A stretch of DNA of 64,000 nucleotides from Gammaproteobacteria bacterium (GTDB lineage: Bacteria > Pseudomonadota > Gammaproteobacteria > Burkholderiales > Rhodocyclaceae), in NCBI GenBank assembly GCA_018825305.1, contig JAHJEO010000016.1, positions 364,574-428,573 of the forward strand, written 5' to 3'. The position numbers and the translations under genes were made by a program. Every line of letters starts with the position of its first letter. Position 1 is the stretch's first letter. The notes under the pieces are model-generated. The model did not search any database. It saw only the letters and a program-made list of their open reading frames with translations, and was not told the origin of the DNA. This document shows positions 37,693 to 39,124 of this stretch, in pieces.

Positions 37693-37983
37693 TCAGTCAG
37701 GGCCAGTGATGCCCTTGCGTTCAACCCGGTAGAGCCAGGCCAGCAACTCGGCTACCGCGACGTAAAGCGCGGGGGGGATGCGGTCGTCGAGATCGACCTG
37801 CGCCAGCAGGGTAACCAGCTCCGGTGACTCGTGCACGAACACGCCATGTTCGCGTGCCCGCGCGATGATCTCGTCGGCGATCAGGCCGCGACCCTTGGCC
37901 ACCACGCGCGGCGCGGCGTCTCCCGGCGCATAGGCCAGGGCTACCGCCAGCGAGCGCTCATCCTTGTTACGGCTCGGGCTCAT
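37693..37983 (-). CDS. free FlhB C-terminal-domain homolog (FlhX/FhlB type)
   Basis: This 96-residue protein aligns with the post-cleavage cytoplasmic domain of FlhB (SLAVALAYAPGDAAPRVVAKGRGLIADEIIARAREHGVFVHESPELVTLLAQVDLDDRIPPALYVAVAELLAWLYRVE). Compare FlhB HFAVALKYDAANMGAPKVVAKGMNLVAHKI. It lacks membrane segments and the NPTH cleavage site. Such stand-alone domains (FlhX in Campylobacter) can partly replace the cleaved FlhB domain in export switching. It overlaps the FliK-like gene by 17 bp, implying a joint role. Confidence 0.9.
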   Translation of the reverse strand: MSPSRNKDERSLAVALAYAPGDAAPRVVAKGRGLIADEIIARAREHGVFVHESPELVTLLAQVDLDDRIPPALYVAVAELLAWLYRVERKGITGPD

Positions 37984-39124
37984 GTTTGACCTGCATGCCC
38001 AGCAATTTCAGGCCCGCTTCATTGAGTGCGGCCGCCAGCGCCGGCGTTTCGTCGCGCAGGTCCGCCGCGCTGGCACCATACGGCGTTGCCAGCGCGATGC
38101 GCACGCCGGCGGGAGTCAGTTGCAGTGTGGCATCGATGCGGCCCAGGCGCGGCGTGGTCAGCGACAGCGTGGTGTTCCAGCGGCCGGCTTCTTCGTCAGC
38201 GGCACTGCCTTCGCCGTCCGGCTTCTCGTATTCGATCTGCCAGTCCATGTTCTGCCCCGGCCAGACTTCGCCATGCCACAACATGCGCTGACCGGCCGCC
38301 GCTTCCAGTTGCTGTTGTACCAGCGGCCGTAGCTCTTCGGGCACCGACTGCCCCGGCGAAAAAGTCGGCGCTGGCGACACGGCGCCTGATGCCGGAGGGG
38401 GCGGTGCCGCGGCCTCCGGCGTGCCGAACAAGCTGCTGAGCAAGGCCGTGACGCCCGTGGCACGGGGTATGGAAGCCGCCAGAGCCGCAGCACGGGCCGC
38501 CGTCTGGTCCGGCGCAATGCGGTGCGCCGCAAGCAGATCGGGCGCCGAGAGGCGGCCTTGCGGCTCATGCAGCAGGTTGGCAAGCGGCATCTTGCCGCTG
38601 ACCCACTGCGCCTGGTGCGATTCGTAGAACAGCCCGCTTTGCGCAACCGCAGTTTTCAGGGCGGGCAAGAGTTCCTGTGCCGCAGCCGGGGGCGCCCGCA
38701 GCAACGGCTGGCCGCGGTTGAGTGGTGCCGGTGTCGGTGTCTCGCCCTCGGGCACCAGCAGCTTGCCGATCATCTGACCCGCTGGCGAAAGCCGCGAAAA
38801 CTGATAGGTGGCGGGCGTGCCTTCTGCCGCCGCTTTCGGTGCGAGCTGGGCGATGACCACCCGTGCGCTGCGGTCGACCACCACCAGTTCCAGCACGTCG
38901 CCTGCCTTGGCGCCTTCCGGCAACTGCAGCGTCAGCAGCTTGCCGGCCACCATGGCCTTGTAGGTGTTTTCCGGCAGCACCTCGTGGATGCGGGCCGTGA
39001 AGTTCTGGCCGAGCTGAAGGTCAGGCAGGTCGGCCGGAATCGGCCGCACCGGCGAAACCGGATGCAACATCGATTCCGCTTGTGCCTTTAGCTGCAGGCC
39101 GACATCGGGGGGGATCAGTGCCAT
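37967..39124 (-). CDS. second FliK-like hook-length-control-domain protein
   Basis: The 385-residue protein has an N-terminal part with PDLQLGQNFTARIHEVLPENTYKAMVAGKLLTLQLPEGAKAGDVLELVVVDRSARVVIAQL, a long variable middle, and a C-terminal FliK-type domain (WNTTLSLTTPRLGRIDATLQLTPAGVRIALATPYGASAADLRDETPALAAALNEAGLKLLGMQVKHE). It differs strongly from FliK at 26479-27612. It is coupled to the FlhB-domain protein downstream. A 26-bp repeat copy encodes VSPAPTFSPG in the middle region, and a G7 tract (39107-39113) falls near the N-terminus. Confidence 0.88.
   Translation of the reverse strand: MALIPPDVGLQLKAQAESMLHPVSPVRPIPADLPDLQLGQNFTARIHEVLPENTYKAMVAGKLLTLQLPEGAKAGDVLELVVVDRSARVVIAQLAPKAAAEGTPATYQFSRLSPAGQMIGKLLVPEGETPTPAPLNRGQPLLRAPPAAAQELLPALKTAVAQSGLFYESHQAQWVSGKMPLANLLHEPQGRLSAPDLLAAHRIAPDQTAARAAALAASIPRATGVTALLSSLFGTPEAAAPPPPASGAVSPAPTFSPGQSVPEELRPLVQQQLEAAAGQRMLWHGEVWPGQNMDWQIEYEKPDGEGSAADEEAGRWNTTLSLTTPRLGRIDATLQLTPAGVRIALATPYGASAADLRDETPALAAALNEAGLKLLGMQVKHEPEP
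38358..38384 (+). repeat. 26-bp dispersed repeat, copy 7 (inside fliK-like gene)
   Basis: GAAAAAGTCGGCGCTGGCGA followed by CACGGCG is a full-consensus copy. The host gene on the minus strand reads [11 protein letters not shown]. Confidence 0.75.

Follow-up and report, generated by a model that had tools for sequence, protein, structure and literature searches.

A FliK-related protein and a free FlhB C-terminal domain form an old, cohesive gene module that may act as an auxiliary flagellar export switch

Why would a bacterium that already encodes a full-length FlhB and a FliK keep a second FliK-type gene joined to a free FlhB C-terminal domain? The question is raised by a 64,000-nucleotide stretch of contig JAHJEO010000016.1 (hereafter the window) from a Rhodocyclaceae genome (GCA_018825305.1), in which the gene for a 385-residue FliK-type protein (FliK2; 37967..39124, minus strand) runs into that for a 96-residue FlhB-domain protein (FhlB; 37693..37983, minus strand), the two open reading frames (ORFs), in different frames, overlapping by 17 bp (37967..37983). 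The coordinates are exactly those of the initial annotation and Pfam bears out the domains it named; it was also right that the main FlhB and FliK are encoded elsewhere. The former, with a TNPTH cleavage site in its translation, matches PF01312 with 422.6 bits (149..1168, plus strand, Pfam-matched span), and the latter (FliK1; 26479..27648, minus strand; PF02120, 81.3 bits) ends in the tail GMVDVFV. Profile searches of the genome placed PF01312 and PF02120 at two positions each, one canonical and one in the pair, and revealed no further copies of FlhB or FliK. We found that fliK2-fhlB is an old, cohesive module, which we tentatively read as an auxiliary, trans-encoded export switch.

FhlB corresponds to FlhBCC, the post-cleavage fragment of FlhB, minus its NPTH motif. 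The PF01312 match (69.4 bits, cut-off 24.4) covers only profile positions 261-335 of 335, that is, the last 75 positions; there is no transmembrane part, and NPTH is absent both here and from all 230 relatives (0/230), FhlB sequences starting at the strand after the cleavage site. When the 230 FhlB sequences were compared with 14 FlhB sequences, the strand A-V-A-L-x-Y and the A-P and VAE (its A) positions were about as conserved as in FlhB. Mapped to Salmonella numbering (A286, P287, A341 and L344), the retained positions include the early-substrate pocket. The existence of an early-substrate pocket on FlhBC has been reported (PMC8983047).

These features are shared with the FlhX/FhlB/HP1575 type of protein (TIGR00789), which likewise consists of the same single domain of about 80-110 residues with neither transmembrane part nor NPTH, sits beside a full FlhB (present in the same genome here as well), and is monophyletic with respect to FlhB. 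FhlB of the window differs in scoring 91 bits against TIGR00789 (flhB_rel), below the NCBI cut-off of 117.35, a value reached by no match in the two Pseudomonadota samples searched; among the controls, Bacillus subtilis and Thermotoga maritima match, and two control genomes score above the cut-off. The likeness to FlhX is therefore claimed from anatomy and ancestry, not from curated equivalog membership, and because of such sub-cut-off scores automatic annotation may use injectisome protein names, though no injectisome is implied. To our knowledge, the function of an FlhX-type protein has been tested in Helicobacter pylori only.

The only significant Pfam match in FliK2 is to PF02120 (Flg_hook; residues 307-383, 46.6 bits, cut-off 29.8). 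Together with profile matches to 2rrl FliKC (1.2e-7) and the ruler protein 5cuk (7.5e-4) and Foldseek matches, it delimits a T3S4, or FliK C-terminal switch, domain at residues 266-381 (37982..38329, minus strand), whose AlphaFold2 model (mean pLDDT of the protein, 79.5) is predicted by Foldseek to resemble 5cuk PscP SS with a root-mean-square deviation of 1.7 over 68 columns. FliK2 thus has a C-terminal fold in common with the injectisome rulers PscP/YscP (5cuk), and no relation to them was found elsewhere in the protein. Its N-terminal domain (residues 35-100; 38825..39022, minus strand), delimited by modelling, Foldseek and conservation, has no Pfam match; residues 41-90 are modelled with pLDDT above 90, and Foldseek matches (E about 3e-3) to IF1 and the MiaB/RimO TRAM domains suggest an OB/TRAM/IF1-like beta-barrel, a candidate new domain family. 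An alignment of 71 sequences resolved FliK2 into the conserved N-domain, a block SGLFYExHxAQW...LxxEPQG (residues 158-200; 38525..38653, minus strand) with G164 and E168 invariant, a variable linker, and the C-domain.

A recent duplication of fliK and flhB was considered as the source of the pair and rejected, each protein forming two clean clades with its canonical counterpart. The tree of 14 FlhB and 88 FhlB sequences left none misplaced (support 0.996), with FhlB monophyletic, and the C-domain tree split 42 FliK2 from 21 FliK sequences just as cleanly (support 0.995). Since FliK2 falls outside the canonical FliK clade, we filed it as a FliK-related T3S4 protein rather than as FliK.

The cohesion of the pair is evident from its distribution, which we surveyed in 80 loci of the nearest relatives (Betaproteobacteria: Rhodocyclaceae, Sulfurisoma, Azoarcus and Thauera), in 276 genomes of the class Gammaproteobacteria (in the GTDB sense, Betaproteobacteria included), 157 of which match either family, and in a wider Pseudomonadota sample of 40 loci picked by score. 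FliK2 lies directly before FhlB in 79/80 betaproteobacterial loci, the exception (L074) being one whose end cuts near the FhlB start. It lies upstream within 700 bp, nearly always directly adjoining, in 93 of the 97 FhlB loci of the class sample; in two of the four exceptions (G172 and G219) it is still in the genome, 1.4 kb and about 350 kb away, and in the others (G104 and G271) the FliK2 matches are only weak or confined to the C-domain. Two or more members of both families were counted in 95 of the 157 genomes, one of each in 48, a second PF01312 with a single FliK in 8, and two FliK with one PF01312 in a single fragmented assembly, where the PF01312 match is an FhlB beside FliK2; these PF01312 counts can include injectisome homologues. 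Second copies of the two families go together across genomes (Fisher p = 6e-30, phylogeny ignored), and FliK2 without FhlB was not seen in any of the 157 genomes. The wider sample held 28/40 loci paired by profile, one more (L225) with a diverged FliK-like ORF upstream of FhlB, and 11 with FhlB alone. As FhlB stands alone in 11/40 loci and FliK2 was never seen to, FliK2 depends on FhlB, not the reverse.

That the two proteins are functional partners, as the initial annotation proposed, is thus very likely on the evidence of adjacency and co-occurrence and of FhlB being the FlhBCC fragment, the target of FliK. It had also proposed a co-occurrence survey in which frequent separate occurrence of the genes would count against the idea, and such separation was found in part for FhlB and not for FliK2. 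Nor is the pair a chance arrangement, because it recurs across Beta- and Gammaproteobacteria and both members are conserved as protein-coding genes, with differences from the nearest relative at the three codon positions of 6/4/32 in FhlB and 64/42/141 in FliK2. In 166 of 199 related pairs the genes overlap, the FhlB ATG closest to the FliK2 stop falling before that stop has ended, and the 17-bp overlap in the window is a probable case of translational coupling; no natural FliK2-FhlB fusion gene was found in the survey of related pairs.

What such a module might do is best approached from Salmonella, where FlhBCC holds the export gate in early mode and provides an early-substrate docking site, and where 2026 work argues that its physical, FliK-dependent loss at hook completion is the specificity switch; cells without FlhBCC and without Fluke secrete late substrates, and early export is abolished (PMC13344023). 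FliK2 and FhlB share with this known interacting couple the T3S4 C-domain and the FlhBCC fold (PMC13344023, PMC7771051). They differ from canonical FliK and FlhBCC in forming separate clades and in the OB-like N-domain of FliK2, and FhlB, never attached to FlhBN, needs no cleavage. In H. pylori, to go by the title of Wand 2006 as cited in PMC3040844, the free FlhBCC homologue HP1575 substitutes for deleted FlhBCC. Given these two precedents, the most economical reading is that fliK2-fhlB is an auxiliary trans-encoded FliK-FlhBCC switch, with FhlB as lock or docking platform and FliK2 as its dedicated partner, a reading we advance as a serious possibility that still falls short of probable. FhlB would take the position of FlhBCC at the export gate, its conserved first strand pairing with FlhBCN; once docked it would offer the early-substrate pocket and hold or restore the early, locked state, for instance where native FlhBCC is missing or lost, and FliK2, contacting it through the T3S4 domain, would set the timing of its binding or leaving. 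We infer this from the anatomy of FhlB as an FlhBCC without NPTH that keeps the strand and pocket positions, from the T3S4 fold of FliK2, and from the conserved adjacency, order and overlap of the genes, the co-occurrence of second copies, the strict dependence of FliK2 on FhlB, and the persistence of FliK2 in two of the four genomes where adjacency is broken (G172 and G219).

Several observations weigh against this interpretation. A helix Arg and residues of the PPLARAL segment, invariant in the 14 FlhB sequences, are changed throughout FhlB, as is one residue of spacing, and FhlB may therefore not fit the FlhBCC site. The last five residues of canonical FliK are the proposed FlhBCC-contacting part, and beyond the switch domain all 21 canonical sequences (21/21) close with a tail of the form hydrophobic-[DNSEHRK]-x-x-[AVI]; FliK2 of the window instead ends in KHEPEP, and the tail is present in some form in 86/94 class-sample FliK2 proteins and in 0/79 from Betaproteobacteria, figures to be read as a contrast rather than an exact count, the pattern having been set after the FliK2 tails were seen. 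FliK-like ejection may therefore not apply where the tail is missing, which suggests that betaproteobacterial FliK2 does not act exactly like FliK. FhlB also occurs without FliK2 in other classes, e.g., in Zeta/Alphaproteobacteria-like genomes. Finally, a chimera of FliK2C and FhlB, its frames joined by one four-base word (AAAC=K) purely as a modelling device, and folded from an anchored alignment, gave a model with a pTM of 0.64 in which the FhlB part superposed poorly on 3b1s and which yielded no reliable complex.

The solitary FhlB genes, the conserved pocket positions and the phrase 'spare part' used for HP1575 (in a title cited in PMC3040844) would all fit another account, in which FhlB is a redundant backup FlhBCC that FliK2 merely tunes or chaperones, the module coming into play only once native FlhBCC has gone. 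We consider this unlikely, since a pure backup leaves the strict dependence of FliK2 on FhlB and the conserved, FliK2-specific N-domain unexplained, and the substitutions peculiar to FhlB are uniform across its clade. Still less likely is that cytosolic FhlB, which has pocket positions and no membrane part, acts as a sink for early substrates or FliK, with a non-secreted FliK2 sequestering FhlB, and so sets export or hook-length thresholds; the confidently predicted fold of the FliK2 N-domain and the missing tail in Betaproteobacteria would suit such a decoy or buffer, but a decoy would have no need of the conserved strand, the expected pairing partner of FlhBCN.

The initial annotation had suggested a second, late checkpoint, in which the pair gates a step between junction or cap export and flagellin export. 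FliK and FlhBCC are a known switch couple, and the gene context fits: FliT (39187..39531; PF05400, 72.1 bits) and FliS (39531..39956; PF02561, 114.7 bits), confirmed by Pfam as the neighbours named there, and FliD (39972..42029; start codon uncertain) all lie upstream on the minus strand, and the order fliD-fliS-fliT-fliK2-fhlB-PilZ is kept in most of the 80 betaproteobacterial loci. This location is mainly betaproteobacterial, however, the pair not being beside fliS-fliT in most gammaproteobacterial loci checked, and therefore carries little timing information; moreover, the corresponding Pseudomonas putida operon pp4328-pp4329 is reported only to be weakly FleQ-dependent (1.8-fold; PMC5026340), and a search of the window found no sigma-28-like site near the pair. 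Nothing we found places the pair at that step, and we regard the proposal as improbable. About equally doubtful is an extension of the trans-encoded switch in which the module makes the specificity switch resettable: FhlB would refill a vacated FlhBCC site and FliK2 would release it again, so that a refilled basal body would return to early mode for repair or regrowth after loss. Least credible of all is that FliK2 acts mainly through its N-domain, e.g., by RNA or chaperone binding tied to fliDST, with FhlB as an export-state sensor, because the matches to RNA-binding OB/TRAM folds have E near 3e-3 for a very common fold and the fliDST linkage is not kept outside Betaproteobacteria.

One genome bears on whether the module serves the flagellum at all. 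The one-contig genome G031 has no full-length FlhB and no flagellin match, and all that is left of the module is a broken pair beside cheA-, cheB- and parA-like genes; an interspersed repeat, coding each time for one peptide (PSPSKQQK...GVDYRGLTALTSLSMAVSA), recurs several times, at about 2.5-3.2 kb, 8.5-8.8 kb and 9.7-10.0 kb of this locus (L097), and interrupts the relic fliK2 and fhlB. A non-flagellar job for the pair, considered on the strength of this genome, was rejected, the relic being broken by the inserted repeat in a genome without flagellin. The pair thus appears to depend on the flagellum; its state in G031 is what decay after flagellum loss would look like and argues against a non-flagellar role.

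Around the pair, a YcgR-type PilZN-PilZ protein (36830..37621, minus strand; PF07317 and PF07238), a conserved neighbour in Betaproteobacteria, starts 71 bp after fhlB. Two tandem FliT-like ORFs lie between fliS and fliK2 in several betaproteobacterial relatives (L017, L020, L022, L025, L026, L027, L029 and L038), an arrangement that the window lacks. Sigma-28-like sites, each differing from TAAA-N15-GCCGATAA by one mismatch, occur twice, away from the pair, at 9162-9188 and 48909-48935 (both minus strand), and a sigma-70 promoter for the pair was discarded, the one sigma-70-like match being at chance level. Beyond FliD lies a flagellin-like protein (42183-44819, minus strand) of 878 residues, unusually long and with a large central insert.

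Free FlhBCC proteins were known already, and earlier mentions of the pair come from two groups. In P. putida, pp4328-pp4329 is described as a FliK homolog and an FlhB domain protein, the same two gene types, and is reported only as a regulated operon with a FleQ-dependent promoter (PMC5026340). In the campylobacterotan Nitratiruptor, flhX-fliK is named as one locus (PMC9321776); the likeness is by text alone and the second gene is named fliK itself, so that whether it is of the FliK2 type cannot be told. No publication treating the pair as a module or testing its function was found in a search that covered subscription journals thinly. PA3740, remembered as a relative, proved wrong, being described as an MshEN protein. 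The idea that the pair substitutes for Fluke was likewise dropped: Flk was found in only 8 genomes, which all belong to a single family and all lack a short FhlB, and the contrast, resting on a single clade, is uninformative because other families lack both. New here are the counts of how often the genes pair, a dependence that runs one way only, the distinct N-domain of FliK2, the descent of both families in two clades and a tail that differs between lineages.

For decades it has been asked how flagella and injectisomes switch export substrates. Among the class-sample genomes with any match to the switch families, well over half (95/157, with second copies of both) encode an FlhBCC as a gene of its own together with a FliK-type partner; none of the E. 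coli-family genomes tested yielded a short FhlB, so the standard model organism appears to be without a component that many relatives have kept. If the module does make the switch resettable, a step regarded as irreversible in Salmonella would be reversible in the many Proteobacteria that carry the pair. The pair also allows genetics to ask directly whether the FlhBCC lock is replaceable or resettable.
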